A stretch of DNA of 48,084 bases from a virus. A model generated the notes under the pieces. It was not told the origin of the DNA. It was given only the letters and a program-made list of their open reading frames with translations, and searched no databases. Made by a program: the position numbers and the translations under genes. The DNA is taken from the IMG/VR virus record IMGVR_UViG_3300020180_000025, positions 1-48,084 of that record. One strand, written 5' to 3'. Positions 9,541 to 29,528 of this stretch are shown one piece after another. Numbering within the stretch: position 1 is the first letter of the stretch; the number at the start of each line of letters is the position of its first letter.

Positions 9541-9606
9541 AGAAATTTTCACCGTTTTGAAACTACACCACTTGAGTGGCTGTAGAGGAAAACGGTACTC
9601 CTCCCG
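9541..9606 (-). promoter_or_regulatory. Leader element L, copy A (SD-bridging hairpin)
   Basis: Minus strand: GGGAGGAGT, then stem ACCGTTTT, inner hairpin CTACAGCCACTCAAGTGGTGTAG-type (positions 9588-9566), TTTC, stem AAAACGGT, then 10 nt and ATG 9540. Folding would bring the Shine-Dalgarno to 10-11 nt from the ATG. Inner pair at the bulge is A-T here and G-C in the other copies. Confidence 0.75.
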
Positions 9607-9631
9607 TGTAAATAAATCGGACATTTAATTT

Positions 9632-9680
9632 GCTGGTCAGAATAGGCTTTTGCAAGCTACTCCCTTTAAGGCAGATAGTT
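9632..9680 (-). repeat. Repeat unit T, copy 1
   Basis: Plus strand begins GCTGGTCAGAATAGGCT and continues through TGCAAGCTACTCCCTTTAAGG. Same unit occurs near 17049, 19026, 19069 and 22174. It follows the stop of the 163-residue gene and carries two short inverted repeats (GGCT..AGCC type and CCCTTTAAGGG type). Confidence 0.75.
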
Positions 9681-10170
9681 ATGGCGGGCTAATACTCGTT
9701 GTATCCTTTACAAGCCGATGTTGCCATTCCAGTGTGTAAAAAGACCCGACGACATTGGCATCGCCTTGTACCTGACCATCGAAACGCTCAATACGTGTGA
9801 GCCGTGCGCTATCTGGTACATAAAAAGACTGGATAGCGGGGTAAGTGGCTGTGACGAAATTTCGATACCGCATAAAATATGAGGTGATGGTCATCATATC
9901 TGCAAGCAATACTGCTTCGAGTTGGCTGTCATACCCACTCATAGACGGGCCGCGGATGAGGAGCATGTCCACCGCAAAGGTTAGCCGGCTATCTGCTGTG
10001 TTGATTGGGTTTAATGATGTGGTACGCGCCAACGTAAGCCAGTATGGGTAATTCCCCGCACCATTTCGCGGGGTGTAGGTGGTAGCCGATGTCGGAATAA
10101 TCACCCGTTGAATCTCAATTATCCGTTTGATGTAATTGTCTAGGTCTGGAGTCGAAACTTGATATGCCAT
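9679..10170 (-). CDS. Tail terminator / head-tail joining protein candidate
   Basis: 163 residues. Starts MAYQVSTPDLDNYIKRIIEIQ; middle has LTFAVDMLLIRG and a Trp/His-rich end (SFYTLEWQHRLVKDTT). Two bases separate it from the upstream connector gene. Location between connector and gp10-like/tail tube genes fits a tail terminator or completion protein, but no motif proves it. Confidence 0.6.
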   Translation of the reverse strand: MAYQVSTPDLDNYIKRIIEIQRVIIPTSATTYTPRNGAGNYPYWLTLARTTSLNPINTADSRLTFAVDMLLIRGPSMSGYDSQLEAVLLADMMTITSYFMRYRNFVTATYPAIQSFYVPDSARLTRIERFDGQVQGDANVVGSFYTLEWQHRLVKDTTSISPP

Positions 10171-10172
10171 CG

Positions 10173-11066
10173 TTACCCCCCATAGACCCCGCGGGCATTG
10201 CTGATGGTGTACATTGCCACGAGTTCGCGGGCTTCATCAGGTATCTCAATCGTCTCGGTAGCGTTTATACCATCAAAACGCACGCGCTCAAACTTGCCCC
10301 GCGTCTGGTAATTAAATGCAGTAATCAGGGCGCACGCCCTCACGATTTCGGGTTGCACATCGAATGTGCTGATGCTTGCACCAGTGACATGTGCTGTCGC
10401 CGTTGTGCCGTTATAAGCCCGTACCACGGTGAGGACGTTGGTAATTGTGTTTACACCCATCACTGCCATATACTCAGCGCCGATGCGGATCATCTGCCCA
10501 ACGTCAAAACGTGGGGATAATCCCCACGCATTTGCGCCATCGACATCCGTTACCGTCACGCTAGTCGCCGTTGTGGTTAGTGGGGTAGTCTGCACCGTAT
10601 CGGCGCTCCCAATCCATCCCACCACATCATATCGCTCTCGATAGCACCACATCCCGTCTATTCTTACGGCTTGTCGCCAATTGTCTGCATAGTTAGTCCA
10701 TGTGCTATCTGTCAAACCTTCTAACAACATGGTTGACCGTTTACCGCGTGGATGATAACGCCAGTCTGTATCGAGCACTAACACCTTGCCCGCACCGTCT
10801 GTCAGCGTCACCACATCGGCTATCGAAGCGTTCAGAGAAATGGCACGAGTCCACCTGTCTATATGTTCGCCGATGCAATCAAAATAGCGCGTTTGGCGGA
10901 GTGGCGCGAATAGGTCATGCGTCATCTCATCAATTCGGGATGTTACCCGCCGAGCATACGCCATGAGGCGTGCGCGGTTTTCTGCCAATATAGGCGCGTC
11001 AATATTCTGGTCGCTGGCGATGATTTGGGCTTCGAGAGCCGATAGCGTGGCGTAGCTGTGTACCAT
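10173..11066 (-). CDS. Head-tail connector (adaptor) protein candidate
   Basis: 297 residues. The N-terminal third is helical (SALEAQIIASDQNID, RARLMAYARRVTSRIDEMTHDLF). It is followed by beta-rich sequence with a small insert (TSVTVTDVDG, FDVGQMIRIGAEYMAVMGV), then helical EIVRACALITAFNYQTRGKF and DEARELVAMYTISNARGVYGG. A helical adaptor fold with a beta insert fits gp6/gp15-type connectors that dock under the portal. Start ATG overlaps the upstream stop (TAATG). Confidence 0.65.
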   Translation of the reverse strand: MVHSYATLSALEAQIIASDQNIDAPILAENRARLMAYARRVTSRIDEMTHDLFAPLRQTRYFDCIGEHIDRWTRAISLNASIADVVTLTDGAGKVLVLDTDWRYHPRGKRSTMLLEGLTDSTWTNYADNWRQAVRIDGMWCYRERYDVVGWIGSADTVQTTPLTTTATSVTVTDVDGANAWGLSPRFDVGQMIRIGAEYMAVMGVNTITNVLTVVRAYNGTTATAHVTGASISTFDVQPEIVRACALITAFNYQTRGKFERVRFDGINATETIEIPDEARELVAMYTISNARGVYGG

Positions 11067-11368
11067 TATTCCTCTAGTGTGACCATGATGGTGGCATCAG
11101 CCGTTGCACGGATAATTTGAAATTGACGGACGTTATCCGTCCCTGTGAGAATCAACTCAGATGGGGCGGGGAGTAGATGCCCCACTGTGTCAGTGGGCGC
11201 AGTCCCATCGTACCGATAACGTATTGGCTGAGTTTCAACAGTGATGCGGATGCGATTAGCGCGATTGACCTGCTCTTGTGTAATACCAGTAAATGCCTCA
11301 AGCGTTAATGCCGTTGTCGACACTGTTTGAGTTGCCATGTGAAAAGCGGTGAACGCGGTAACTGCCAT
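11066..11368 (-). CDS. Small capsid-accessory protein
   Basis: 100 residues from ATG 11368 (MAVTAFTAFHMATQTV) behind CGAGGTAAG; the longer frame upstream overlaps the preceding gene. Beta-rich: ITVETQPIRYRYDG, SELILTGTDNVRQFQIIRA. Resembles small phage proteins thought to decorate capsid or tail. Four bases after the stop of the upstream gene. Function unknown. Confidence 0.6.
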   Translation of the reverse strand: MAVTAFTAFHMATQTVSTTALTLEAFTGITQEQVNRANRIRITVETQPIRYRYDGTAPTDTVGHLLPAPSELILTGTDNVRQFQIIRATADATIMVTLEE

Positions 11369-11372
11369 TTTC

Positions 11373-11795
11373 TTACCTCGTGATATAGGAAAAACAAACA
11401 GTTGCAAGACCTGCGCTCGCATCTGCAACGGATTGCACAAAGATGGCAGTGACAGTAGTAGGTGAATCCAGTGGCGCATCAAACAGGCGTGCCACTTGCA
11501 TCCCTGTGACTAATTGTGTGGCGGTGTCGACATTAAGGTCGTTTGCATAGTAGTTAGCAGTCCCTGTAATGCCGATGTCGAGCAGGTCTGTGCCAGATGA
11601 GTTAAAAGCGGTGGACACGTTGACCGTGATACCCACCACAACCGCACCTTCTGGCAGAGTGAAAAGCGATTTGGCGGTGGTGTCTGTATGTGCCACCGTC
11701 CCATATTTGACAGCCGTTGTTCCACCGAAATTCGGCGGGGCAAACTCGTCACTATCCATAACAAACGACCCTGGTGGGTTAAATGGTTGAGTCAT
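11373..11795 (-). CDS. Decoration-like virion protein
   Basis: 140 residues, preceded by GGGAGGTG. Sequence has GAVVVGITVNVSTAFNSSG, then DLLDIGITGTANYYANDLNV, the pattern of small beta-sandwich proteins encoded next to capsid genes in many phages. Virion location inferred; no enzymatic motif. Confidence 0.6.
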   Translation of the reverse strand: MTQPFNPPGSFVMDSDEFAPPNFGGTTAVKYGTVAHTDTTAKSLFTLPEGAVVVGITVNVSTAFNSSGTDLLDIGITGTANYYANDLNVDTATQLVTGMQVARLFDAPLDSPTTVTAIFVQSVADASAGLATVCFSYITR

Positions 11796-11807
11796 TTACA
11801 CACCTCC

Positions 11808-12227
11808 CTAGGTGATTTTCTTGGGCGCGATAATCTGCACACTGAATGGGATGGAGATAGTGGCACCTGCGGCAGTAGCCGTTACGCGCAAATAGCGAGC
11901 AACGCGCTCTAGTTTCACGGCAACCGACTGAAACGAAGCGCCTGCATCAGTCACTTGTGTAAAGGTAGCCGCTTCGTTTGTGGTGGGGCTAAACAAGGCA
12001 TCCGCAGGGACGGCAGACCCAGCGCCAGAGTTTGCAGTGTTTTCCAACACCGTAATATCCAGCGTATCGGCTGCAGATGCGGCACCACTATTCAGGATGA
12101 TAAGCAGATTACCTTCGTATATGCCGACATCAATCCAACTGGATGTGATGGGCGTGGTGTTAACAACGGCTTGGGCGGTGATAGCGTTTACTGCAACGAC
12201 TTCACCGCCAATAAGATGGCTATACAT
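11808..12227 (-). CDS. Decoration-like capsid protein
   Basis: 139 residues behind AGAGAGGT. Gly/Ala/Thr-rich beta protein: SSWIDVGIYEGNLLIILNSG, DTLDITVLENT, then VKLERVARYLRVTATAAG. This pattern (small beta protein with RYLRVxxTxxG directly downstream of the major capsid gene) is common for phage head decoration or fibre-like proteins. Assignment by position and composition. Confidence 0.6.
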   Translation of the reverse strand: MYSHLIGGEVVAVNAITAQAVVNTTPITSSWIDVGIYEGNLLIILNSGAASAADTLDITVLENTANSGAGSAVPADALFSPTTNEAATFTQVTDAGASFQSVAVKLERVARYLRVTATAAGATISIPFSVQIIAPKKIT

Positions 12228-12268
12228 AGTTTTTTACCTCTCTATGTTATATGTGACGATGGCGCGAG

Positions 12269-14476: not shown

Positions 14477-16676
14477 TCAACAGGTTATCGGGGTCATGGA
14501 CCCCGCTTATATGTGTGTGTTTTCCAGCCGAAGCAACGACAGGGAAACGTCCTTTGGCGCGACCTGTGGTGCGTACTAAGTTGCACGCACACTTAAAGCC
14601 CTTGCACTCTAGTTTGTCGGATTTGGGGACGAGTCCACGTTTCACGTATTCTTTCATGCGGTGCTTTTGTCCATTGAGAGCCAGACACGTTCTACAGTGC
14701 TCGGCGTTACCCAACACCCATTCGTAAAGCCCATTCTTATCAGCACTCGCCAGACCAGCTTCATACATGGGGTATAGTGACTTGTTAAACCACATCTCAG
14801 GCTTACCGTATGCCATAGCATCCGATAGTCCCTCTTTGAATACCTTATCGGCGAAGTTAGTGACATACGCGCTTTGTTGAGCAATGATGGCATCCACAGC
14901 TTGAAAATCTTCTGTGTCCATATCCCCATCTTCAATGCCACCGTCAATGAGTCCATCACGGTAAGCACGTCTACCGTATTTTGCGATGATCGCCCGCACG
15001 AGCGTCCCGAATCTGCGCCGATTAAGCCCCCCGTTTCGACCTTCTGCTAAGATGTCCTCAAAATCGCTTTCAAAGTTGAGGCGGGTAGACTGGATAGACT
15101 TTTGGCTTAACCACGCTTTCGCGTTGGCGAAGATGATGTCTGGGGTGTCATCCGTTTCATCCAGCGCTTTCTCGACAAACTCAACGATATCTTGCCGAAG
15201 GTAATTGGGCGCAAAGTCGCACTTGCGTTCTTTGCCCGCTTTCTTTTTCCATGCGCGTAATTCGGCATAGTGAGTATCAGGTATCCAAGACTTGCTCCCC
15301 ATCGGCGTTTTCAGGTCCTCTACTGTGGGGCGCTCGGGGAATACAGGCACAGAGTCGTCTAACACCGATGGGGCATGTGCTTCGTTCTCTGGTGCAAACG
15401 CACCGTTCAGTTTTTCCCACATGGTAGTTGCTGTTTCAATCGGGACAGGTGCATTGAGAGCTGGGCTATAGACCATCTTATCCAATTGCGGAATGACTTC
15501 CTCGCCCAATTGTCGTTGTGCCTCGCCATACGTGATAAGCCCCATCTGTAATTTTGAATTTACGACATTGACCCGACTCGCCATGTCCTCCTTGAGAAAT
15601 GGCACAGCATCAAAATCTGGCTCAACCGTGTAACCTTCGTCAAAATCAGAGGCGAGTTGCTCGGTGAACGCATCGGCATACCAGAGTGCTTGCGGGACTA
15701 GCCATGTGTGCGCCCAAGAGCGCCGAACACCCTCAAATTGTGCATAGTTGGATGCCGATGCAAACAGGAGTTCGATCGGAATTCCAAAGGCGATAGCCAC
15801 TTGTTCGCGCACTTGGTCGGTGAGATGACGTGTATCTAAATCGCGGAAGGGTGGTTGGAGAGTGACAAATTCCCATCGTTTAGGACTAACGAGTGTTCGT
15901 CCTGCGTTCCGAGCACCTTGCACGATTGACCGAAACAGGCGTGTAAGCATATCAACATCATTGTCGTTGATTCTGTTTGCAGTATCTGAAGTTGGTTGCA
16001 CAAACGTAGCAGGGATAGCCATATTGCGAAACACTGCATAGATGGTCTGAGCAATCTCGGTGTCGGCAGAAGCCGATGCAAAAGCAACCTCTGTGGGGGA
16101 GATGCCGTCAAAATCATCTGACAAGTCCAGTAAATTTGAAAACACGACTTCATCTGGATAGAGGTATCCACCTGTCTCATCTTGCGTGTGACTGGCTGTG
16201 ACACGGAAGCCCTTTAGACCTCGATAATTATCAGCATCCACCATATAGCTAGTGGGATTCACCCACTGCAATTCAATTGGGATGTTCAGTGCGTTTGTAG
16301 CTTTGTGGAACAGGTTATAGCCAAATATACAGGTAGATAGTTCTGCCCGTTTCATTTTGTCTACATAGCCCGACCTACGGTTGAACATACGTGGCAAAAG
16401 TCCGTTTGCGATTTTTTCCCCGTTACGGTCTTTTACAATCATTGGTACTTGACTGATGTTCACGGCTCGAAAATTAATAGCGGCGTAAACCATGACTGAA
16501 TAGGCATATAACTCGGCTTGTTCTTTCCTACTTATGCCCTCAAGTCGGAATTCATCCAACGGATTAAACATCTTCATCCCCATGGGGGGAGAAGCGAAAG
16601 GATTATTTAATTGTTCGTTTGGGATAAAGCGCCGATTATTCAATATATATGGGGGTTCTCTTAGTAATCCTACCAT
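14457..16676 (-). CDS. Portal protein fused to MuF-like head morphogenesis domain
   Basis: 739 residues. The N-terminal about 430 are HK97-type portal: YSVMVYAAINFRAVNISQVP, VNPTSYMVDADNYRG, EVVFSNLLDLSDDFDG, REQVAIAFGIPIELLFAS and YAQFEGVRRSW. The C-terminal about 250 are helical and end in a Cys/His cluster (EHCRTCLALNGQKH..., then CKGFKCACNL), as in MuF-type minor head proteins. The portal forms the DNA entry ring; MuF-like domains are minor head components. No good ribosome site precedes ATG 16676, and Met32 or Met35 are possible starts. Confidence 0.85.
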   Translation of the reverse strand: MVGLLREPPYILNNRRFIPNEQLNNPFASPPMGMKMFNPLDEFRLEGISRKEQAELYAYSVMVYAAINFRAVNISQVPMIVKDRNGEKIANGLLPRMFNRRSGYVDKMKRAELSTCIFGYNLFHKATNALNIPIELQWVNPTSYMVDADNYRGLKGFRVTASHTQDETGGYLYPDEVVFSNLLDLSDDFDGISPTEVAFASASADTEIAQTIYAVFRNMAIPATFVQPTSDTANRINDNDVDMLTRLFRSIVQGARNAGRTLVSPKRWEFVTLQPPFRDLDTRHLTDQVREQVAIAFGIPIELLFASASNYAQFEGVRRSWAHTWLVPQALWYADAFTEQLASDFDEGYTVEPDFDAVPFLKEDMASRVNVVNSKLQMGLITYGEAQRQLGEEVIPQLDKMVYSPALNAPVPIETATTMWEKLNGAFAPENEAHAPSVLDDSVPVFPERPTVEDLKTPMGSKSWIPDTHYAELRAWKKKAGKERKCDFAPNYLRQDIVEFVEKALDETDDTPDIIFANAKAWLSQKSIQSTRLNFESDFEDILAEGRNGGLNRRRFGTLVRAIIAKYGRRAYRDGLIDGGIEDGDMDTEDFQAVDAIIAQQSAYVTNFADKVFKEGLSDAMAYGKPEMWFNKSLYPMYEAGLASADKNGLYEWVLGNAEHCRTCLALNGQKHRMKEYVKRGLVPKSDKLECKGFKCACNLVRTTGRAKGRFPVVASAGKHTHISGVHDPDNLLNEDAHV

Positions 16677-16890
16677 GTAATGCGGTTTGTCAAGTACCCA
16701 AAAGCTATAAGCGTGAACTTATAGCTAAATCTAGCATTTCTTCTCACTTATTTTTAATCTAGCGTTTTGATGGTCTGCCAAAACCGCCTATACTAGCCGT
16801 CATAGACCTGACCCGCGCTAGGTGAGGTCTTGATTGTCTCTATCACAACGTCCAACAAACCCAAAGCCCCATTACCAACCAAGACAGCTG
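16677..16890. other. Gene-free region upstream of portal with inverted repeats
   Basis: No gene seen. Contains an inverted repeat AGCTATAAG-6 nt-CTTATAGCT (16703-16726) overlapping a motif GCTAAATCTAGCAT (16724-16737) that recurs before the recombinase gene. On the minus strand a TTGACA lies about 30 nt before the portal ATG, with only a weak -10 (TAGGAT). This is a plausible control region for the head/tail operon. Confidence 0.5.
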
Positions 16891-17048
16891 GTTATGGTCA
16901 CCTCGTCAATGTTATCCATCGGGTTATGTGTGCATGACACTGGCTTAAGCACTCACGCCTATTTAATCATGCACCGCAGAGTATGGGACTGGTGAAGCAT
17001 CCCATAGTGCCTATGTATTCGATGGTAACGGAGTCTTTGCTGGCTTGG
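16891..17048 (-). repeat. Repeat unit M, copy 1
   Basis: About 158 bp of non-coding sequence that recurs at 22017-22173 (nearly full length) and 29617-29690 (part). Shared landmarks on the plus strand are GGTCACCTCGTCA, TGCATGACACTGGCTTAA and GGTGAAGCATCCCATAGTGC. Here it is followed directly by unit T. Confidence 0.8.
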
Positions 17049-17098
17049 ACTGGTCAGAATAGGCTCTTACAAGCCACTCCCTTTTAAGGGAGATGGTT
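17049..17098 (-). repeat. Repeat unit T, copy 2 (contains the end of the glycosidase gene)
   Basis: Plus strand ACTGGTCAGAATAGGCT, then CTTACAAGCC and the perfect inverted repeat CTCCCTTTTAAGGGAG. The last codons and stop of the upstream minus-strand gene lie inside this repeat. Two adjacent hairpins can form in the RNA; no T-run follows, so it is not a classical terminator. Confidence 0.8.
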
Positions 17099-18397
17099 GA
17101 CGTTTACCACGTCTTGACGAATATACCCACTACGAGAGCCGATGCGGACAGATAGCCATACCTTTGACTTATCGTGACGGTCTGGGATTGCGCCATCCAC
17201 CCCAATGAGAACCGATGTGTTGCGATACACCCGTGTAACGATGGATGCGGTAATATCGGCTGTCCGTCTCAAATTGACCCATAGCGTGCCTTTCGGGGAT
17301 AACCGTGCCGATTGCCACCGCTGAGGCGCGACTGGTTGGGTAGGTGGGGGGAGAGATGTGCCACCTCCAACCCCCGATACAAGTCGCTCGTGAAATTCGG
17401 TGTTGCCCGCGTAGTCCTGTCCAAAATCCCCAAATGAACCATACGCGAAAATTAGGATGCCCTCGACATTAGGCGGGTAGATGTTATCTGCCCATTTGAT
17501 TTGTTCCGCCATCGCCTGCCCATGTGTCCATTGGGGATAGATAGCGCGATACAGGTTTTTGAGTGACTCTGCACCGTCCAGCCCGTTTTGCCCCGCCGTT
17601 GCTGTATAATGGGCTTCCATTAACCGATAAAAGTCTTGGGGGATGTCTGACATTTTGCCCCATCCAAATTCAGTGATGACAGTTGGAATCGGCTTAAAAC
17701 CTAATTGCTCGGCGCGTAGGTTTGTCACCCAATTGGTGCGGAAGATGTGCCATGTGGTGCGGGGGTTGATTTGAGAAGCCGATGCCCACCGTCCAGGGTG
17801 CATGGCAGAAACGTTGTAGGGTGTCACATCTACCCAAGAGGTGAAACCTACACCCAATGGCAAAGCACCCCATGTATAGGCATGTCCACCGTAGTACATA
17901 CCCGCAGTCTCTGCGATGAATCGGATGAGTTTGTCGTACACGCCTGCCTCTGCCCAATCAAGCCGCTCATTGGCGGGTGGAAAATTCCCCAATACAGCGC
18001 GGTATCCCTTTGCGTGAAGCAATGCGCCAACCTCTACGAGCCAATCGCAGAGCGCACGCATTTCATCGGCTTTCGCAACATTCGGCTCATTCAACACATA
18101 CTTGACGGTGTTCTTAGCTCGACTATTGCGGATGAGCGATTCGACATAGCGCGAGGGCGCGACCCACGCTCTATCGTCGCGCCACACGTTGCCTTCATCA
18201 CGTCTACCATCCATGTGGGTGAGCCGATGAATTACATTCGCACCCGTGATAATTGTTTGCTGGGCGAGAGTGTCATCATTTATCACCAATGTCCACGATG
18301 AACGCAGACGAGCCGTTAGGTCTACAAAATAGGGTTTGTTGTTGATACCAGTCTCTAGGGCATTAAAGCCAATGCGTGAGCGTGTTTGATTTGACAT
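17084..18397 (-). CDS. Clan GH-A-like glycosidase with C-terminal SH3b-like domain (lysin candidate)
   Basis: 437 residues. The N-terminal about 340 look like a TIM-barrel glycosidase: acid/base Glu104 in VLNEPN and nucleophile Glu243 in VITEFGWG, the two-strand spacing of clan GH-A. A Pro-rich hinge (PPPTQPVAP) leads to an SH3b-like tail (GTLWVNLRRTADITASIVTRVYRNTSV, VWLSVRIGSRSGYIRQDVV). This fits an endolysin or cell-surface polysaccharide depolymerase. It sits between terminase-side accessory genes and the portal, downstream of a bidirectional terminator, so it probably has its own promoter. No holin is obvious next to it. The last codons lie in a repeat. Confidence 0.72.
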   Translation of the reverse strand: MSNQTRSRIGFNALETGINNKPYFVDLTARLRSSWTLVINDDTLAQQTIITGANVIHRLTHMDGRRDEGNVWRDDRAWVAPSRYVESLIRNSRAKNTVKYVLNEPNVAKADEMRALCDWLVEVGALLHAKGYRAVLGNFPPANERLDWAEAGVYDKLIRFIAETAGMYYGGHAYTWGALPLGVGFTSWVDVTPYNVSAMHPGRWASASQINPRTTWHIFRTNWVTNLRAEQLGFKPIPTVITEFGWGKMSDIPQDFYRLMEAHYTATAGQNGLDGAESLKNLYRAIYPQWTHGQAMAEQIKWADNIYPPNVEGILIFAYGSFGDFGQDYAGNTEFHERLVSGVGGGTSLPPPTQPVAPQRWQSARLSPKGTLWVNLRRTADITASIVTRVYRNTSVLIGVDGAIPDRHDKSKVWLSVRIGSRSGYIRQDVVNVNHLP

Positions 18398-18662: not shown

Positions 18663-18935
18663 CTACGTAGTTATTTTAAGTCTAAAAATCGGCTTTTTAA
18701 GAGACGGTTGAGGCACACTCTCGCCACGCACCAACATCGCCTCAATATAATCTATCCGTGCATCGGCGAGTTCATGCAATGCATCTGCTTGAGTACGCCC
18801 TTGCGCCTTACAGCCCGGTAGTTCTGGATGCTTGGCTACCCAGATGAGACTGCCATCACATAAGATATCTGAGTTTAACACCACCACATAATTATATTGT
18901 GAATACCGTTTCGCTTCGTCGCGGTATAAATTCAT
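18663..18935 (-). CDS. HicB-like antitoxin-fold protein
   Basis: 90 residues from ATG 18935, immediately after leader element L. Sequence LIWVAKHPELPGCKAQGRTQADALHELADARIDYIEAML is the typical HicB partial RNase-H-like core (HPELPGC..G.T..EAL..L..A...YI). A short C-terminus (KKPIFRLKI) follows, without a clear DNA-binding domain. No hicA-like toxin of about 60 residues is next to it, so it is a solitary HicB-type protein, perhaps an anti-defence or regulatory protein. Surrounded by leader L upstream and the terminator downstream, it looks like a self-contained cassette. Confidence 0.75.
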   Translation of the reverse strand: MNLYRDEAKRYSQYNYVVVLNSDILCDGSLIWVAKHPELPGCKAQGRTQADALHELADARIDYIEAMLVRGESVPQPSLKKPIFRLKITT

Positions 18936-18999
18936 AGATTTTTTCACCGTTTTGAAACTACGCCACTTGAGTGGCTGTAGCGGAAACGGTACTCCTCCC
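18936..18999 (-). promoter_or_regulatory. Leader element L, copy B
   Basis: Minus strand GGGAGGAGT, stem ACCGTTT, inner hairpin with GCCACT-CA-AGTGGC, stem AAACGGT, 10 nt (GAAAAAATCT), ATG 18935. Same fold and spacing as the other four copies. Confidence 0.75.
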
Positions 19000-19025: not shown

Positions 19026-19114
19026 ACTGGTCAGAATTTGCAAGCCACTCCCTTTAAGGCAGGTGGTATCTGACCAGAATGGGTTTTTACAAACCACTGC
19101 CCTTTAGGGCGGTA
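19026..19114 (-). repeat. Repeat unit T, two tandem copies (3 and 4)
   Basis: First copy 19026-19070 starts ACTGGTCAGAATTTGCAAGCC. A diverged second copy, 19069-19114, reads TGACCAGAATGGGTTTTTAC, then CCACTGCCCTTTAGGGCGG. The inverted repeat in the second copy (GCCCTTTAGGGC) keeps pairing with different bases from CTCCCTTTTAAGGGAG, which suggests the hairpin is conserved. Confidence 0.75.
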
Positions 19115-19444: not shown

Positions 19445-19452
19445 GTAACCCT

Positions 19453-20506: not shown

Positions 20507-20619
20507 TCTGCCCTCATTTTGCAACCATCAATAAATGATATGGTACAACAAGTCTCAGGAGGCATTTGCTAGAGGCACGCACCAGCTTACTGTTGGGTGA
20601 AGCCGATGAGGAGTGAGAC

Positions 20620-21867
20620 CTATATGAGCCGATAAGAAAATGTCGCGCCATGATTGATAATGGCGTGCCATGCCAAAGCGATGCTCATCACACAATCATC
20701 GTGTAACCCTTCTGGGGAGCTATATTGAGAGCGCCCCGATACCCCGATGCGTTGCTCGTACGCCATAAATTCGCCTTTGATATATTCGTCATCAATGAGG
20801 GTTATCTCACGGCGGTCGAATGCCAATACAAGTGACTCTATCAAAACCGGCTTACTAGATGCTGTGGTCTCAAAACTCTCCACAGGTAGTCCCTCGCGTT
20901 GAAGTGCTTCGATGTTTGGCGAGCCGATAGAGTTACTCTCTGCCACTATAACAGACGGCTTCCACCTTTCATAAACCGACTTTAACCGCCCACGTTGAAG
21001 CGCCCAATCTACCCCATTAAATCGCTCATAGTAGACTAGTGTGCGCGTGTTAACATCCATCACTGACACCACCGTATAATCTTTGACTTTTGCCCAATCC
21101 ACCCCCATAACGAAGTTCCCTTGATACGCTGTAGTATGGGGCTTGGCTATACAGACCTCGTCTACATAACGGAATACCGCGCCTGTGCCTTCTAGGAATT
21201 GGGCTAGAATCTCCTGCTTGTAATCATCATCAGTCATGTTTGCCACAAGGCGGTCAAGCGCCGATTGTGGGAGATGTGGATTCGTGTGAGTCGGAAAGTT
21301 CCATGCCTGCCAATCGGTGTTGTTGGGGTCAATGGCATCTTGGTACAACTGAAAGAACCAATTGCGCCGTTTGGGAGTTGAGATAAATACAGCCGAGCCG
21401 TCATTGTCCGCCAACATAGGCGCTCCCACTGACCGCCACGCACTTGGGTGCAAATATGCACATTCATCGAGGACTAAGAGGTCTGTCCCACTCCCCCGAA
21501 GCGCGTCCGGTTGACGACCCGTTTTTACACGGATTTGCCCATCGCCGATACGAAGGATGCGCCTCACCTCATTCTTGTAGAATAGATTGGTGTCTTGCAA
21601 TGGAGAGAGCCAGTGCTTGATATACTCCCAGAATACATCAGCCTGCTCTTGGCTGGTGGATGACAGCAAGACATTTTTACCGTTCAAAACACCGTTATTA
21701 AATCCGTGCTTTTTGTCCCCGCCAATAGCCATGCGGGATGCCATCATCGTTTTGCCCGCCCGCCGACCCGCACAAATGACCTTAAATTTAGCGGGATGAA
21801 CGGCAATTTCCTGCTGGAGCGGATAAGGCGTGGGCAAAACGATTTTGACACGGGTATTATCACTCAT
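20620..21867 (-). CDS. terL: Terminase large subunit
   Basis: 415 residues from ATG 21867, directly after leader element L. ATPase: Walker A AGRRAGKT (33-40), Walker B LLVLDE (130-135), then a coupling motif in FISTPKRRNWFFQLY. Nuclease: first acidic motif VMGVDWAKVKDYTVV, later IVAESNSIG and a final GLHDDCVMSIALAW. This packages DNA into proheads through the portal. Its length is normal for compact TerL proteins. terS lies upstream, separated by a 335-bp repeat cassette rather than the usual short gap. Confidence 0.93.
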   Translation of the reverse strand: MSDNTRVKIVLPTPYPLQQEIAVHPAKFKVICAGRRAGKTMMASRMAIGGDKKHGFNNGVLNGKNVLLSSTSQEQADVFWEYIKHWLSPLQDTNLFYKNEVRRILRIGDGQIRVKTGRQPDALRGSGTDLLVLDECAYLHPSAWRSVGAPMLADNDGSAVFISTPKRRNWFFQLYQDAIDPNNTDWQAWNFPTHTNPHLPQSALDRLVANMTDDDYKQEILAQFLEGTGAVFRYVDEVCIAKPHTTAYQGNFVMGVDWAKVKDYTVVSVMDVNTRTLVYYERFNGVDWALQRGRLKSVYERWKPSVIVAESNSIGSPNIEALQREGLPVESFETTASSKPVLIESLVLAFDRREITLIDDEYIKGEFMAYEQRIGVSGRSQYSSPEGLHDDCVMSIALAWHAIINHGATFSYRLI

Positions 21868-21930
21868 AGAAAATTTTACCGTTTTGAAACTACGCCAACG
21901 AGTGGCAGTAGCGGAAAACGGTACTCCTTT
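21868..21930 (-). promoter_or_regulatory. Leader element L, copy C (terL)
   Basis: Minus strand AAAGGAGT, stem ACCGTTTT, inner hairpin whose loop region is changed (CCACTCGTTGG), stem AAAACGGT, 10 nt (AAAATTTTCT), ATG 21867. A one-base loss in the loop shifts the frame relative to other copies, so the element is not conserved as protein. Confidence 0.75.
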
Positions 21931-21948
21931 CGTATAAACAAAGCGGGC

Positions 21949-22018
21949 TAAATATCCCCGAAGGGAGAGGATTTTGCCGTAAGGCGGGCATCCTCTGACC
22001 CTCGCCGCTTGCGCGGGT
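21949..22018 (-). repeat. Repeat unit P, copy 1 (three-hairpin RNA candidate)
   Basis: Minus strand order: CCGC-GCAA-GCGG hairpin, then AGAGGAT...ATCCTCT enclosing GCCCGCCTTACGGC, then CCC-TTCG-GGG. It lies just upstream of leader L, copy C. Recurs at 26625 and 29547. Confidence 0.75.
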
Positions 22019-22173
22019 TTATGGTCACCTCGTCACTGTTATCTATCGGTTTATGCACATCACACTGGCTTAACCACTTATGCTTGTTTAATAATGTGCC
22101 GTAGTGTTCAGGGCTGGTGAAGCATCCCATAGTGCCTATATATTCACCCGTAACGGAGTCTTTGCTGGCTTAG
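22017..22173 (-). repeat. Repeat unit M, copy 2
   Basis: Nearly full-length match to 16891-17048 (shared GGTGAAGCATCCCATAGTGC, CGTAACGGAGTCTTTGCTGG-type landmarks). A 60-codon frame inside is judged spurious because the other copies do not keep it. Confidence 0.8.
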
Positions 22174-22230
22174 ACTGGTCAGAATAGGCTTGTTACTAGC
22201 CACTACCCTTTTAAGTGAGATGGTATCTGA
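22174..22230 (-). repeat. Repeat unit T, copy 5 (contains the end of terS)
   Basis: ACTGGTCAGAATAGGCTTG, then CTAGCCACTACCCTTTTAAG. The last codons of terS (PSHLKG and stop) are read from this repeat in a frame different from that used by the glycosidase gene at copy 2. Confidence 0.75.
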
Positions 22231-22784
22231 CTGTCCCGCGCATCCTCATTCACAATTTCAATGGTGACCTTATGGCTTTGGCTTCCATCGGCATTATTGC
22301 CCATCGTGCGCCGTGACCAATCTTGCGGGTTTCGGCGTTCAAGCAAAGTCATAGCGGCAGTCCAGTTACCCTCTTTGATGAGTTTGCCAGTTTCATCATA
22401 TTTAGGTAAAGCGGCATCAACAATCGTGTTTACAAGCCCTGTCTCTAACGTCAGGTTTGCTCTTTTTATCCTCTGCGAAAATTGCGTCAGCAAAGTTATT
22501 TGATGGTCATATTCTTTTTGCCGATGAGAGAAAATAGTATCCGTTTCGCTTTTTCTACGGCGTGGCGGTTTCGGCATATCGGCGTGTTCCTCCCCCACTT
22601 CCAATGCTTCACTAATTCGCATCCAGTGATAGAAAGTGGTTTCCGAAATGCCTGCCATCCCGCAAGCAGTTCGTTGCGAATTGCCGTTCATAAGTAGGTT
22701 CTCGATATTTTTTACAAGTCCCTCGCCTATGATTGGCTTTCGTCCTACTACGTGTTTCTTATTTGGGGCAGGCATCTTTGTCAT
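22203..22784 (-). CDS. terS: Terminase small subunit
   Basis: 193 residues. The N-terminal helix-turn-helix (NSQRTACGMAGISETTFYHWM, about 35-55) recognises packaging sites in this family. A central helical region with TLLTQFSQRIKRANLTLETG is followed by WTAAMTLLERRNPQDWSRRT, a common TerS C-terminal segment. The SD AAAGG abuts ATG 22784, so Met4 (22775) may be the real start. It lies four bases after the methyltransferase stop and upstream of terL. Confidence 0.82.
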   Translation of the reverse strand: MTKMPAPNKKHVVGRKPIIGEGLVKNIENLLMNGNSQRTACGMAGISETTFYHWMRISEALEVGEEHADMPKPPRRRKSETDTIFSHRQKEYDHQITLLTQFSQRIKRANLTLETGLVNTIVDAALPKYDETGKLIKEGNWTAAMTLLERRNPQDWSRRTMGNNADGSQSHKVTIEIVNEDARDSQIPSHLKG

Positions 22785-22787
22785 CCT

Positions 22788-23489: not shown

Positions 23490-23564
23490 TTTGCCTTCAG
23501 CCTTCCTTCATTTTGTTGGGTTACACTATAGATATGACAAATCACAAACCGAAGAGGTATGGAA

Positions 23565-24083: not shown

Positions 24084-24085
24084 AC

Positions 24086-24117
24086 AAAAAAGACCCTGTG
24101 TACACGGGGTCTTTTTG
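24086..24117. terminator. Bidirectional rho-independent terminator
   Basis: AAAAAAGACCCTGTG / CACGGGGTCTTTTTG stem with a tiny loop, right after the HAD gene stop. T-run on the plus strand, A-run on the other side, so it can also stop minus-strand transcripts from the 148-residue gene. Confidence 0.85.
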
Positions 24118-24260
24118 TAGCTACTGCCAGTTTTGTTTTTGAGGTAGGTTAGGACTCGCATTAATTCTCCCACGCGAGTCCCCCAACGGAAAATGAATAA
24201 AACTGAATATCTCTCTAATCGGCACTCTGAAATGCAGATTGTTGTTATATCCCTATTGTA

Positions 24261-24707: not shown

Positions 24708-24799
24708 CGGCTATTCACTTTCACGCGAGTTGTCGCGGATGAAGGATTCCAAATGCAATTGAATACCTAGTGCTTTGGGAGACACTCCATAACACCAAA

Positions 24800-25108
24800 T
24801 TAAAGGAGTCGAATTCGACCCCTTTTGCATGAAGCCGAATCAGATGCCTTCTCATTTTTTAAGAATATGGCTATTGAATCCTCTAGCAAATCGGCTTCAT
24901 CCCTGTAGACAGGGTGTAATTCGGTGAGTTCGATGATTGTTGGCTTAGAGGGTTCAGGCGCAAGCGACACAATCTCATCGGCGACTTTCTCTAGCGCTTC
25001 CATCATATAAGGCTCACCGCTTTCAAGTCCTTCCATGTATGGCTTTACTGCCGTAATGAATTCGATGATTTCTTCTGGGGTCATTTTAGAAACATCATTA
25101 TGATTCAT
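24800..25108 (-). CDS. Hypothetical acidic protein, 102 aa
   Basis: Starts MNHNDVSKMTPEEIIEFITAV, acidic and helical, with AADEI-like and ADLLEDSIAIFLKNE segments. Start overlaps the upstream stop by ATGA. The last codons (GRIRLL and stop) lie in an inverted repeat (AAAGG.GTCGAATTCGAC.CCTTT) that may end the transcript. No motif recognised. Confidence 0.6.
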   Translation of the reverse strand: MNHNDVSKMTPEEIIEFITAVKPYMEGLESGEPYMMEALEKVADEIVSLAPEPSKPTIIELTELHPVYRDEADLLEDSIAIFLKNEKASDSASCKRGRIRLL

Positions 25109-25461
25109 ACCTCACTCCTTAAGTCTCTTAATATATCAAATGCGGAAACCACCTTGCCAAACATATTGCCATCGTCATCCAACCCCATCTTTAAGCCAAA
25201 AACCGCGCCTTCCCCCGCAGTTATGATTTGGTCGTTGACCTTAACCACCGCTTGCGCTTTGACCTGCCACTTCCCCGCGTCTAAAAGATATATGCCATCG
25301 CCCAAGAGCGTGAGCATCTCGCGGAAAGCCGATGGCGAGTCGCCCTCAAAGACGAGGCTTGCGGGGTATATCCCATCTACAGGCTCGCCCAACAAGAGAT
25401 TTGAACTTACATCCATAGATCCAAGCAATTCTAAAAACCGTTGTGCGTCAATGTTATCCAT
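25105..25461 (-). CDS. Hypothetical protein, 118 aa
   Basis: Start MDNIDAQRFLELLGSMDVSS at 25461 behind AAAAAGGG; the longer frame upstream is the overlapping end of the RNA ligase gene. Beta-rich core with DGIYLLDAGKWQVKAQAVVK and GEGAVFGLKMGLDDDGN, then a C-terminal helix. It overlaps the ligase gene by 31 bases and the next gene by 4, so all three are likely co-translated. Function unknown. Confidence 0.6.
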   Translation of the reverse strand: MDNIDAQRFLELLGSMDVSSNLLLGEPVDGIYPASLVFEGDSPSAFREMLTLLGDGIYLLDAGKWQVKAQAVVKVNDQIITAGEGAVFGLKMGLDDDGNMFGKVVSAFDILRDLRSEV

Positions 25462-26543
25462 CCCTTTTTGAACTCGTGTTTGACATAAATTGACTGTCTG
25501 ATGTCGCCACCATCCAACATGCAAAAAAGGTACGACTTGAGGTGTGAATGATTGGCTTGCACCCACACGCTAAAATCCTTTCGGGATTCCTTTGGCGCTT
25601 CCGAGAAGGCACGCTCAACATCGGCTTTCACCGCCTCAACCTGTGTGTTAATCTGAGACACCCAGCGTCTAACATCACCCAAGAATTCGTCTGGAATCTC
25701 TGCAATATATCCATCCAGTGTGCCATCTCGGAGCGAACTGAGCACGCCATTAAAAGACAGAGAGAAGATGAGTTTATGCAAACGCAGGTATTCGGGTGTC
25801 TTGAATTTGAAGCGTTGTCCATCCGCAAACTCAACCACATACCCTTCAATGCCTAAGTGAGTTTGACATTCATCTAATACGCTCTCAACCGTCTTTAGTT
25901 GACCCATGTCTCCGTTGACAATATCGAAAGTATGATTGAAATAATATTCAAAGTGCCTAATGAGCCGATGGTCTAAATATTCCCCCGTATGGCGATTGCG
26001 GATTGCCAAAAGGAATAACCCATTATTTTCGTATTCCAAAACAATACGATTCTCTGGATAAAACACTTCAAAAATACATGTATAATCACGAAACATTTCG
26101 GCAAATTCTTCGATTTCACCAGAACTCATTTCGTCATAGAAAAACTCTTTTGCCCATTTGGCTTGGTCACTATCGAAACTACCGCGCGTTGCAAAACATA
26201 TCTCCTCACCGCAGATATATGTAAAAACCATACTCCCATCAATTTTTTCCGCAACATATTTTATCGGCGCAGTCGAAAACCGTTCACCCTCACCCCAATT
26301 GAAGAATTTGTCAAATGGGCGAGCGACTATCTCACCTGTTTTTGTATGGATAATCAGACCCCGCGACACACGCTCAAAGAAGTTCCAGTCGCCCTTATAT
26401 TGGGCTCCTGCAGTGTAATTGAACAAGATTAAATCTCCGCTTTGCTTGGTGGTTACATACCCAAATTGCCTCCAGTTTGTGAATCCCTCCTTTACGAGCG
26501 TGACAATATCATCAATTGTAGAAATGGTCTCTAGCGTTGTCAT
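25431..26543 (-). CDS. RNA ligase, T4 Rnl1-like
   Basis: 370 residues from ATG 26543, right after leader L. Nucleotidyltransferase motifs in order: RGLIIHTKTGEIVARPFDKFFNWGE before the active site; motif I EKIDGS with Lys100 as the AMP-accepting residue; motif IIIa in CIFEVFYPENRIVL; motif IV IEGYVVEF; motif V FKFKTPEYLRLH. This order and the RPF-KFFN segment fit T4 RNA ligase 1, which seals broken tRNA or RNA 5'-phosphate ends. The C-terminal domain is unlike T4's and was not recognised. It likely counters host anticodon nucleases; no kinase domain is fused. Confidence 0.85.
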   Translation of the reverse strand: MTTLETISTIDDIVTLVKEGFTNWRQFGYVTTKQSGDLILFNYTAGAQYKGDWNFFERVSRGLIIHTKTGEIVARPFDKFFNWGEGERFSTAPIKYVAEKIDGSMVFTYICGEEICFATRGSFDSDQAKWAKEFFYDEMSSGEIEEFAEMFRDYTCIFEVFYPENRIVLEYENNGLFLLAIRNRHTGEYLDHRLIRHFEYYFNHTFDIVNGDMGQLKTVESVLDECQTHLGIEGYVVEFADGQRFKFKTPEYLRLHKLIFSLSFNGVLSSLRDGTLDGYIAEIPDEFLGDVRRWVSQINTQVEAVKADVERAFSEAPKESRKDFSVWVQANHSHLKSYLFCMLDGGDIRQSIYVKHEFKKGWITLTHNGF

Positions 26544-26606
26544 AGAAATTTTCACCGTTTTGCAACTACGCCACTTGAGTGGCAGTAGAGGAAACGGCAC
26601 TCCTTT
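26544..26606 (-). promoter_or_regulatory. Leader element L, copy D (RNA ligase)
   Basis: Minus strand AAAGGAGT, stem GCCGTTT (G-U closing), inner hairpin GCCACT-CA-AGTGGC, stem AAACGGT, 10 nt, ATG 26543. Confidence 0.75.
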
Positions 26607-26624
26607 CGTGTCGGTATAACAGGC

Positions 26625-26694
26625 TAAATATCCCCGAAGGGAGAGGATTTTGCCGTAAGGCGGGCATCCTCTGACCCTCGCCGCTTGCGCGGGT
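26625..26694 (-). repeat. Repeat unit P, copy 2
   Basis: Identical in layout to copy 1, with the GCAA loop. It stands upstream of leader L copy D, without M or T units; only about 30 bp remain between it and the upstream ParB-like gene. Confidence 0.75.
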
Positions 26695-26723
26695 GAAGAT
26701 ACCTTTACCGTATCACATATCGG

Positions 26724-28256
26724 CTACCCCATTTGATACAGGGCAATGCCGAGCCGAGCACCAAAAGCCAAACATGCTTCCTTCACCAAGCCCATGCGTT
26801 CACCATCTGGATACGGTAGGTCAAACTCAAATTCTAGCGCCTCACGCAGGCGCTTACGGCTAATCGGCTTGGGTGTTTTGCACTCGGCAAAAACCAACCC
26901 GTCTCGTTGGTATGTCCTCACCGAGAGGAATCCTATCTCATGCAATTCGGAATACTCCGATACACCGAAAAACTTCTGCACCTTTGGCAGTCTGTCAAAC
27001 TCACCGAGCAGGATATTTGGTTCGTAGTCGAGTGCAAATATGGTGCTGTCTAGCGCGTTGGCATTGAGTTGTTGATTGCCCTTAGTGTTGCGGATGTTGG
27101 ATGAAACAGTGCTAGTGGTGTATGAATGGAGAGTTGTCTTAGGTGAGCAGAGAGCCGATAGTATCGTAATGATATGCTCACGGTCTTTTGCAAACGGGAC
27201 GCTGTTCATGACGGCAGATAGGAACATGCTGTCCCACTGGATGCCCTGCCGAACACAGGCGAGGAACTCCCGCGCCACCCGCACAGATTCTTCCCTATCT
27301 ATCACATCATTACTGCCAGCTCGAATACAGTAAGGCTCAAACACATCCACGCGAATCCCTGCTGGCTTCAGCTTCGTCAGATAGCGCCACCCTGCCCAAA
27401 AATCTAGCACCGTCTCCCCATATATACCACGCCATTTTTCGATGTGGTGAGGGCTGTCAAAGTCGAAACTAGCATTATTTTTGAGTTTCATTTTGGATAA
27501 ATGTCCTGTGGCGAGGTTGCCTGTGCCGTTGCGGGTACGCCTAAACGAATTGTGGCGCAACACATCGGCGTACCGAGTGTGAATATCAAAGTCCATAGAG
27601 AGGTAATTGAGCATGGCATCGGCAAACCGTGCCTCCTCATGTGTGATGAACACCACATCGGCCACTTGTATATTCTTTTCCGCTAGATATTGCAACCGCC
27701 CAATCCCATTCGTGACCACGTAATCCGGTGTGGCGACAATCGGCAGGACGATGTTAGTCGTATTCGCCAGTGTTTTGCTGATATTGCGTGCATAGTCCAC
27801 CCATCGCCCTGCGTTTGCGGTTATTAGGTTTTGCAGAGGGACGCGCTGTGTCGCCATGCACGGGTACATCTGGTCGGGTGTCTTATCTGGCAATGCCTCG
27901 CCCATCGCAAAAATATCCATCTGATTCAAGACATCAGTAATAGAGGTGGGCGTGGCAGACCGCGCAAGGTCATTGGTAGCACGATTAAATACCACGTTGA
28001 TATTGCGCCGTTTATCCAGTGCCATCGGCTTAGTGTACATCACTGGTACATGGGTAAGCCCTAATTGCTCAGTTGCCACCAGATAGCGCTGATGTCCCGA
28101 CAAAATCTCACCATTCGCATCGGCGCATATCGGCGACACAAAGCCCAATTTGCGGAGGGATAGCTCAATAATCCGTAGGCGCAACGGGTCTGTTATGCGC
28201 GGGTTATACGCCGATGGATGCACGTTGTCTATGGGTACAAGTTGTATATCCGTCAT
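26724..28256 (-). CDS. ParB/Srx-domain protein with large C-terminal extension
   Basis: 510 residues. The N-terminal about 85 form a ParB/Srx-like domain (LVPIDNVHPSAYNPRITDP, EILSGHQRYLVATEQLG). The central and C-terminal parts are not ParB: ETVLDFWAGWRYLTKLKPAG and RVDVFEPYCIRAG look like the nucleotide-binding start of a methyltransferase-type fold, followed by SVRVAREFLACVRQGIQWDSMFLSAVMNSVPF. Such proteins accompany terminase in several phages. A DNA-modification or packaging-related role is possible but unproven. Start overlaps the upstream stop (ATGA). Confidence 0.68.
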   Translation of the reverse strand: MTDIQLVPIDNVHPSAYNPRITDPLRLRIIELSLRKLGFVSPICADANGEILSGHQRYLVATEQLGLTHVPVMYTKPMALDKRRNINVVFNRATNDLARSATPTSITDVLNQMDIFAMGEALPDKTPDQMYPCMATQRVPLQNLITANAGRWVDYARNISKTLANTTNIVLPIVATPDYVVTNGIGRLQYLAEKNIQVADVVFITHEEARFADAMLNYLSMDFDIHTRYADVLRHNSFRRTRNGTGNLATGHLSKMKLKNNASFDFDSPHHIEKWRGIYGETVLDFWAGWRYLTKLKPAGIRVDVFEPYCIRAGSNDVIDREESVRVAREFLACVRQGIQWDSMFLSAVMNSVPFAKDREHIITILSALCSPKTTLHSYTTSTVSSNIRNTKGNQQLNANALDSTIFALDYEPNILLGEFDRLPKVQKFFGVSEYSELHEIGFLSVRTYQRDGLVFAECKTPKPISRKRLREALEFEFDLPYPDGERMGLVKEACLAFGARLGIALYQMG

Positions 28257-28855
28257 TTTATCCCCATCCGCTTTAATAACTCCTCTACAATGGTTTTGCG
28301 CTCAAACCCCACCGTCTGATACATGCTCTCGCGCCAGCGCATGTAGACATCATGTGGGATAGGGACAATCGTTTTATCTATCTGGAGCATGGTATTACCT
28401 TGTCCACGTTCCTCACGTTTTTTCACTTCGACCTGCACCGCTTCACGCGCTTTTTGCAGGTCTCCCAAGACATCTTGCACAAAACTCTTAGCCTCTGCGA
28501 GAGAGGCTTTAATGCCCTCTAGCACATCCTCATCTGTTTGCGCCTGCCCTGCAATCTGGTCGAGGACACTTAAAATCAGGTCTTGTTCAGTATCCGTCAA
28601 ATCCACATACACCACAGGGATACTCGTCTCGCCCTGCTCACGCGCCAGCCACACGCGCAGATGACCATCCACAATAATATTGGTGCGGATGTTGACCATG
28701 ACCTCATCTACCCAGCCGACATGCGTCAACACATCCAGTAGCGCCTTCTTCTGCACATCTGGATGCACCCGCCAGTTATCGGGGTTTTCGAGTAGGTCAA
28801 ATGGATTAGCCGTACCCGTCTCAACAATGCGTGTTTGCCATGTGTTACTTGTCAT
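28253..28855 (-). CDS. ParB/Srx-domain protein, paralogue 2
   Basis: 200 residues. ParB/Srx-like core with LLENPDNWRVHPDVQKKALLDVL, IIVDGHLRVWLAREQGE and IPVVYVDLTDTEQDLILSVLDQIAG, followed by a coiled-coil-like region and a C-terminal helix (TIVEELLKRMGIK). The IVDGHLRV form replaces GERR of true partition ParB. It is a paralogue of the adjacent 206-residue protein. Starts 11 bases inside that gene and overlaps the next start by 4. Confidence 0.75.
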   Translation of the reverse strand: MTSNTWQTRIVETGTANPFDLLENPDNWRVHPDVQKKALLDVLTHVGWVDEVMVNIRTNIIVDGHLRVWLAREQGETSIPVVYVDLTDTEQDLILSVLDQIAGQAQTDEDVLEGIKASLAEAKSFVQDVLGDLQKAREAVQVEVKKREERGQGNTMLQIDKTIVPIPHDVYMRWRESMYQTVGFERKTIVEELLKRMGIK

Positions 28856-29465
28856 GTCGTGCCTCCAAATCTAAACCAATGCTTTTGAGGATTTCGGCAA
28901 TCGCTTGGGACTGGTTGCCATCGTGTCGGGCAACCACCGTACCCCACCATTCCGCTATTTCTGCCTGTGGCAGAATTATCCGATATTCCCCAAGCCGAAT
29001 CACCCCGTTTTCGTTGGCTTCCTTCTCTTGGGTGAGGCGCTCTATGGGCGCGTCTGAGTCGGGCATTTGCGGAGGGCGAATAGCTTCTACCGTTTCACGT
29101 AGCGCGTTGCTCCGTGTGACCACGCGGTCTGCAAGGGCTTGTGCGCGGATGTTGTTCTTTTGCGCGAGAGCCTTAATGGGGTCAAATGTGGCAAGCACCT
29201 CAAGTTCCTCAGTTTCAGTGAGTTCCACATATTTCACTGGCACCGACTTCTCGCCTTTTTTAATGGCTTCCATCACACGCAGATGTCCGTCCACGATATG
29301 ACCAGTCAGACTATTCACCGTCACATGCTTTATCCACCCCACTTCACCCAATACAGCACTGACCGCTTCCTGTTGGTAGCTCGGATGTATCCGATAGTTA
29401 TACGGGTTAGCGAGAAGCTGTTCAGGGTCTTCATCACCATACCCAACAATGCGATTTTCTATCAT
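28845..29465 (-). CDS. ParB/Srx-domain protein, paralogue 1
   Basis: 206 residues from ATG 29465 after leader L; longer frame upstream only reads the leader and repeats. Core LLANPYNYRIHPSYQQEAVSAVL, HIVDGHLRVMEAIKKGE, PVKYVELTETEELEVLATFDPI parallels the next gene. It is the first gene of a six- or seven-gene minus-strand unit and lies next to the divergent plus-strand genes. The perfect-core inverted repeat TTCTGCC-TGT-GGCAGAA lies inside the coding region near its end. Confidence 0.75.
   Translation of the reverse strand: MIENRIVGYGDEDPEQLLANPYNYRIHPSYQQEAVSAVLGEVGWIKHVTVNSLTGHIVDGHLRVMEAIKKGEKSVPVKYVELTETEELEVLATFDPIKALAQKNNIRAQALADRVVTRSNALRETVEAIRPPQMPDSDAPIERLTQEKEANENGVIRLGEYRIILPQAEIAEWWGTVVARHDGNQSQAIAEILKSIGLDLEARHDK
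28959..28975. repeat. Inverted repeat site, copy inside ParB-like gene
   Basis: TTCTGCC-TGT-GGCAGAA core with right flank TTATC as in the 32840 copy and left flank GCTAT as in the 44190 copy. Confidence 0.75.
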
Positions 29466-29528
29466 AAATTTTTTCACCGTTTTGCAACTACGCCACTTGA
29501 GTGGCAGTAGAGGAAACGGCACTCCTTT
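29466..29528 (-). promoter_or_regulatory. Leader element L, copy E (ParB-like gene)
   Basis: Minus strand AAAGGAGT, stem GCCGTTT, inner hairpin GCCACT-CA-AGTGGC, stem AAACGGT, 10 nt (GAAAAAATTT), ATG 29465. Preceded by P and M units. Confidence 0.75.

Follow-up and report, generated by a model that had tools for sequence, protein, structure and literature searches.

The viral record IMGVR_UViG_3300020180_000025 of IMG/VR (positions 1-48,084; this whole stretch of 48,084 nucleotides (nt) is called the window below) raises the question of how a gene can be translated when its Shine-Dalgarno (SD) sequence lies 56-57 nt upstream of the start codon. On the minus strand, five copies of a leader each end 10 nt before an ATG (at 9540, 18935, 21867, 26543 and 29465), and all five have the same order of parts: SD, a T, an outer arm, an inner hairpin, AAAACGGT, 10 nt, ATG. 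The original prediction took this for a regulatory module of the phage, in which a hairpin shortens the distance between SD and ATG. Our analysis points to a different origin, the end of a mobile element, and to a similar effect: we consider it likely that the terminal hairpin of the element bridges an element-borne SD to the ATG(A) of the target, so that an insertion which separates a gene from its ribosome-binding site is tolerated. The five element ends are the following.

9541-9605, minus strand: element end before the gene at 8992-9540; SD GGGAGGAG at 9598-9605, outer stem ACCGTTTT at 9589-9596 with AAAACGGT at 9551-9558, hairpin 9551-9596, 10-nt spacer 9541-9550
18936-18999, minus strand: element end before the gene at 18663-18935; SD GGGAGGAG at 18992-18999, hairpin 18946-18990, 10-nt spacer
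21868-21931, minus strand: element end before terL; SD GAAAGGAG at 21924-21931, hairpin 21878-21922, 10-nt spacer
26544-26607, minus strand: element end before the RNA ligase gene; SD GAAAGGAG at 26600-26607, hairpin 26554-26598, 10-nt spacer
29466-29529, minus strand: element end before the gene at 28845-29465; SD GAAAGGAG at 29522-29529, hairpin 29476-29520, 10-nt spacer

The layout described in the original prediction was found again in full, as the pattern GGAGTNCCGTTT..AAAACGGT matches five times in the window and its reversed control not at all. The 3' arm AAAACGGT is unchanged across all copies. Both outer arms, ACCGTTTT and AAAACGGT, are exact in two copies (9540 and 21867), against an expectation of 0 from 100 shuffles, and the 5' arm of the remaining three is ACCGTTT or GCCGTTT, i.e., one base shorter or altered. 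The SD reads GGGAGGAG in two copies and GAAAGGAG in three. A hairpin is predicted to fold in every copy (z-scores -1.65 to -4.52), and excising it reduces the linear spacing of 56-57 nt to 9-13 nt, depending on the end pairs counted, in line with the predicted distance of about 57 nt unfolded and a normal one when folded. The 10-nt spacers of the five copies (e.g., GAAAATTTCT, GAAAAAATCT and GAAAAAATTT) contain no other SD. The base after the ATG is A in all five cases, so that every leader precedes ATGA; this tetranucleotide opens 19 of the 49 (39%) ATG-started open reading frames (ORFs) of at least 100 amino acids (aa) in the window, and five out of five would occur by chance about 1% of the time. 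An A at position 4 is frequent in genes generally (PMC5850271). Pairwise similarity shows that the repeat reaches well upstream of the SD, in blocks of 92-103 nt, and that the copies are alike as far as ATGA and divergent beyond. Alignment of the copies places their length changes in the T-run and the loop, as had been claimed; the changes amount to 1-2 nt, and an encoded peptide is therefore not conserved, which was likewise anticipated.

What, then, are the leaders? By their sequence, they are one end of small non-autonomous elements of HEARO/IS200-IS605 type, which carry an omegaRNA and no protein gene. Two complete matches to the HEARO model of Rfam (RF02033) lie above the cut-off in the window, one of them in the terL element. 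Of the other copies, the one at 29465 retains the 3' half of the HEARO, and those at 9540 and 18935 only its 5' stem, as judged by pairwise similarity; these three fragments were not detected by cmscan alone. At 26543, the linker alone is left, and neither pairwise similarity nor cmscan finds a HEARO part.

22018-22231, minus strand: HEARO (omegaRNA) of the terL element, complete match to the RF02033 model, 99.5 bits against a cut-off of 83
21916-22018, minus strand: linker joining this HEARO to the end hairpin, repeated at 26592-26694 and 29516-29618
29613-29695, minus strand: HEARO 3' half left in the element before 29465, 88% identity to 16887-16969 (within a HEARO)
9633-9667, minus strand: HEARO 5' stem remnant in the element before 9540, 91% identity to 17050-17084 (within a HEARO)
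19070-19104, minus strand: HEARO 5' stem remnant upstream of the 18935 copy, found by pairwise similarity, with a second similar stem at about 19027-19075
16891-17101, minus strand: second complete HEARO, upstream of the portal gene, Rfam match of 124.3 bits

None of the five elements contains a long reading frame. A search of the window for Y1 transposase (Y1_Tnp) gave no match, with positive controls in five genomes, and an RRXRR search of the window for iscB/isrB gave no match either there or in the control genomes. The elements are thus at most non-autonomous derivatives, which a TnpA would have to mobilize in trans. In the case of the second complete HEARO, the TAA stop of the upstream gene (17084-17086) sits in the loop of the HEARO 5' hairpin (window 16676-17101, minus strand), and the other end of this portal-gene element has a different palindrome, AGCTATAAG..CTTATAGCT, without ATGA; no SD-hairpin-ATGA arrangement of the leader type is recognizable at the end of this element.

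About 40 other elements of phages, plasmids and E. coli share the end architecture itself, in which outer stem, TTCC, inner hairpin, GTTTCC and outer stem are followed after 7-10 nt by ATGA. Scanning viral contigs with the inner part only (motif TTCCTCCC..GGTTTCC) yielded 46 DNA stretches, which include tnpA-type, tnpB-type and HEARO-type elements, as judged from their flanks, and in nearly all of which ATGA lies 6-9 nt past the outer stem. Near-identical elements at separate sites part exactly at ATGA (or TTGA), as seen for L063/L088, L075/L077 and twice for L071. Because relatives share the end at a fixed distance to ATGA, and copies at two sites diverge there, we identify the hairpin as the end of an IS200/IS605-type element, and this accounts for the repetition of the leader, for the presence of a hairpin and for the distance of exactly 10 nt. 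HEARO elements with and without iscB have this end in common. HEARO mini-elements in the phages L011, L012, L062 and L037 also show the order SD, hairpin, ATGA, with stem sequences that differ from those of the window; in the viral contigs L011 and L012, the SD is followed by CAGCGC or GGCAG, TTCC, the inner hairpin, GTTTCC, the complementary arm, 7-9 nt and ATGA. Plasmid iscB elements (Oceanisphaera, Natranaerobius) have an SD at the hairpin foot or just before it, and the Geoalkalibacter mini-element and the phages L034 and L042 have a purine-rich SD in or beside the 3' arm. The Natranaerobius plasmid pNTHE02 (L095, positions 97 and 3237) has the same iscB-type end twice, each time with AAGGAGGTGA, a hairpin and ATGA. 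In L076 (about 1100-1185), the tnpA-like gene of an IS200-like element extends across the end hairpin to a stop at TGATGA, so that it overlaps with the ATGA of the target. Two further pattern matches, L006 from the viral search and L016 from the genome search, were discarded as chance patterns in coding or unrelated DNA.

These relatives also bear on the idea of a phage regulatory RNA (a switch or a protein-binding operator) whose copies were made by gene conversion and whose HEARO match would be incidental. Five genes of one phage, among them terL and the RNA ligase gene, share the leader and could be co-regulated. Against this stand two full HEAROs well over the cut-off, element copies at different sites, and an identical end type at a fixed distance to ATGA in unrelated phages, plasmids and E. 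coli. We regard such an RNA as highly improbable, and the part of the original prediction that made the leader a module of the phage's own was not upheld.

The SD can be followed through the same collection of ends, which we divided into 33 families at no more than 65% identity over 60 nt inside the element. At the hairpin foot, 15 of the 33 families have GGAG within a 10-nt stretch, compared with 13 of 297 control windows further in (about 4%); the binomial p of about 2e-12 is optimistic, since the families are related by descent. At exactly -10, GGAG is found in 9 of 33 families, and CTCC, as a control, stands at the foot in one of 33. The foot GGAG extends into longer SDs (AAGGAGG) and is seen in elements with tnpA, with tnpB on the opposite strand, with iscB and without a protein gene; families without it can carry an SD in the 3' arm instead. 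The ATG of ATGA opens an ORF of at least 60 aa at 21 of 36 ends, compared with 30% of other ATGA on the same strands (p 0.0005). An SD is present even where ATGA opens a short frame only (L065, L071-, L011), and is therefore carried by the element rather than acquired at the site.

For the hairpin, we aligned 21 ends, after removing one spacer base each from L053 and L070, which left the stem columns unaltered. Standard pairs fill 91.5% of the stem cells, and this value drops to 33-44% in slid controls. Compensatory changes affect all six outer-stem pairs and five of the eight inner pairs, and cells with double changes number 64, compared with 20.0 in shuffles. This shows that the hairpin is under selection, be it as DNA or as RNA; the covariance search proposed with the original prediction finds stems that vary with compensation.

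Insertion of IS200/IS605 elements 3' of a tetranucleotide leaves no target duplication; on the target side, all five leaders have TCAT/ATGA, and a site with joined flanks is known only for a relative in E. coli. There, one related end is present in 342 of 5426 genomes, and adjoins ybhB in 19 of 20 among the matches listed. K-12 has the empty site, AAAGGAGGGTTC followed without interruption by ATGAAACTC. In CFT073, a TnpB element separates AAAGGAGGGTTC from ATGAAACTC, and its end gives CGGAGGCATTCTA before ATGAAACTC. As the flanks of K-12 are parted in CFT073, the element went between the native SD of ybhB and its start codon, and brought another SD. In this element (InsQ/TnpB), the SD before the ATG, CGGAGG, belongs to the 3' arm of the outer stem, and a leader ORF terminates on the ATG itself, as TAATG. 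Since this layout differs from that of the window, the case supports the principle, not bridging itself. More generally, InsQ/TnpB ends (L091, which is E. coli CFT073 at about 2541-2646, and L075, L077, L083 and L097) contain a small outward ORF with an ATG at -77 after AAAGAGG or GGAG, which reads across the terminal hairpin to a stop in TGATG, TAATG or ATGA, apparently a built-in device for translational coupling.

Might the window's leaders be coupling devices as well, with a leader ORF translated through the hairpin, reinitiation near the ATG, and SD-like bases that are incidental or merely helpful? Plausible frames exist in the InsQ family of E. coli and phages (ATG at -77, stop at -2 or +1 in L075, L077, L083 and L097; TAATG in CFT073), some type-A ends (L011, L055, L089) have an open TGA-frame, and in two window copies, those of terL and the RNA ligase gene, an ATG at -124 opens a frame ending at -25. 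This last frame has an ATG in these two copies only, where it lies inside a self-complementary stretch of the linker; of the frames with a stop at -11, only that of the 18935 copy begins with an ATG, which no SD precedes. The five copies have neither an upstream start nor a coupling ORF in common, and L012, L071 and L084 have no coupling frame at all, which makes coupling an improbable explanation of the window's leaders. A related question is where the proteins begin. The genes concerned are these.

8992-9540, minus strand: gene downstream of the first copy, 182 aa, weak match to an HK97-gp10-like tail component, slightly below the cut-off
18663-18935, minus strand: gene downstream of the second copy, 90 aa, weak match to a HicB-like antitoxin
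20620-21867, minus strand: terL, 415 aa
25431-26543, minus strand: RNA ligase (RNA_lig_T4_1), 370 aa
28845-29465, minus strand: gene downstream of the fifth copy, 206 aa, no family match

The gene frames stay open for 84-213 nt upstream of the ATG, and in-frame starts are available at -84 (9540), as GTG at -57 (26543) and as ATG at -126 (29465), so the proteins could in principle begin upstream and be read in frame through the element. For terL, this is excluded, as its open frame of 165 nt contains no upstream ATG, GTG or TTG. For the RNA ligase, it is unlikely: homologues align from residue 1, encoded at ATG 26543, and the alignment equates this residue with the annotated first codon of gene 138 of Streptomyces phage Beuffert. 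Together with the length differences of 1-2 nt, these findings leave N-terminal extension with very little credence, and for terL and the RNA ligase they answer the reservation in the original prediction that proteins might start upstream of the leader. Outside the window, the tail-fibre-like gene of L084 (615 aa) has no upstream start either, and its sole SD lies beyond the hairpin.

Together, our data suggest the following model. The element would insert 3' of TCAT on the plus strand, i.e., directly before ATGA on the other strand. As ATGA is very often a start codon, such an insertion would separate the gene from its native ribosome-binding site. The terminal hairpin would exist in two forms: single-stranded DNA, recognized by a Y1 transposase at a set distance from where it cleaves, and a transcript. 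Folded in the mRNA, the hairpin would cut the distance between AUG and the SD that the element carries on the inner side of the hairpin foot from about 56 to about 9-13 nt, and 30S subunits could start at the target's own ATG. The element would thereby supply a replacement ribosome-binding site working across its own end. Transposition sets the distance from foot to target, and this distance would suit SD spacing once an SD adjoins the other side of the foot. The compensated stems, the conserved SD at the foot and the lack of a shared upstream start make the shortening of the SD-ATG distance by a hairpin, as originally predicted, the best-supported reading.

Several observations weigh against this model. 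The foot SD is missing from about half of the families, and the shared descent of the families tempers the enrichment in the others. Long ORFs at ATGA are not associated with the foot SD (12 of 19 ends with it, 9 of 17 without), and the SD must be seen as a property of the element family; selection at single sites is unsupported. Some of the predicted folds show weak pairing between spacer and SD purines. The only empty site is that of an E. coli relative with a 3'-arm SD rather than a foot SD, and none was found for the window's own elements, as close TerL relatives are lacking (none in viral_contigs, and only about 28% identity in phages); nor did relatives of the tail-fibre-like gene of L084 yield one. 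Finally, recognition of DNA by TnpA also predicts a conserved and covarying hairpin, so that conservation and covariation by themselves do not prove a role of the RNA. The leaders might therefore be transposon ends and nothing else, with a hairpin kept for TnpA, a GGAG kept for a DNA reason (TnpA, replication or an inward promoter), and weak, SD-independent starts at the target genes. Transposition alone is sufficient to explain the hairpin and the fixed distance to ATGA, and such a view has no difficulty with families that lack the foot SD. It fits poorly with a foot GGAG that spans so many types of element and lengthens to a fuller SD, and with the SDs in the 3' arms of other families. We consider it unlikely, though still to be reckoned with.

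Each component of the bridging model has a counterpart among known systems. HEARO/OMEGA elements (IscB, IsrB; RF02033) likewise have the HEARO RNA at one end and ATGA at the opposite end; the window differs in having no iscB/isrB or tnpA matches, and in that the HEARO is partly or wholly lost from four of its five copies. Weinberg and colleagues in 2009 and Altae-Tran and colleagues in 2021 reportedly described an insertion preference for ATGA/GTGA and adjacent ATGA/NTGA motifs. PATE-like IS200/IS605 elements have subterminal hairpins and no protein gene, insert 3' of a tetranucleotide and are mobilized by TnpA in trans (PMC7290912). The window's elements resemble them in the missing protein gene and in the imperfect end hairpin at a fixed 10 nt from the target in all five copies, whereas neither insertion at start codons nor an SD inward of the end hairpin appears in that description. 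For the T4 genes 25 and 38, it is proven that a hairpin intervening between SD and AUG shortens the distance, from 27 to 11 nt and from 22 to 5 nt (PMC3014915); gene 25 is the precedent invoked in the original prediction. As in T4, the SDs of the window are too distant from the AUG unless the hairpin forms, and no nearer SD exists; unlike the short hairpins of two single native genes, the hairpin of the window is a transposon end of about 45 nt, reused at five genes. IStrons, which combine a group I intron with IS605, are an RNA-level device that renders insertion harmless (PMC4227781). They share the transposase family and the harmlessness at the RNA level, and differ in that they splice out, while the window's elements would replace the ribosome-binding site. 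The E. coli InsQ/TnpB element at ybhB has the same end motif between native SD and ATGA, with its 3'-arm SD and leader ORF indicating coupling instead of bridging. No description of a transposon end that serves as a ribosome-binding site, with or without bridging, emerged from a literature search, although the original HEARO paper was outside this search and the absence of such a description is thus unproven. Split ribosome-binding sites, HEARO, PATE-like elements and harmless IStron insertion are each known separately.

Three other features of the window lie apart from the leaders. At 41278-41375, GGCGGTTTGTCCCACAAACC is repeated in tandem four times (copies of 23-26 nt, each a small hairpin), within a coding region or close to one. 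A palindrome resembling TTCTGCCTGTGGCAGAAT occurs three times (28952-28981, 32838-32867 and 44183-44212), in some cases where a gene ends, and may represent terminators or a further mobile repeat. The large protein encoded at 33365-35107, with weak resolvase and zinc-ribbon matches, is likely a serine integrase, and the phage is therefore probably temperate.

If the bridging model is correct, it would explain how elements that target ATGA can separate a gene, even an essential one such as terL, from its ribosome-binding site by inserting precisely between the two, and yet persist. Insertion would be rendered harmless at the RNA level without splicing, by a portable leader, and split ribosome-binding sites, of which T4 gene 25 seemed a curiosity, would have a possible origin. 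A comparison of E. coli K-12 with strains that have InsQ at ybhB offers a related case open to direct test. Whether the idea extends to the whole group is, in our view, evenly balanced: IS200/IS605 and HEARO/OMEGA elements that target ATGA may be start-codon-targeting parasites that widely carry a mobile ribosome-binding site, in the form of bridging, of an SD in the 3' arm or, as in E. coli InsQ, of a coupled leader ORF, with one and the same hairpin selected both for transposition, as single-stranded DNA, and for translating the invaded gene, as RNA.

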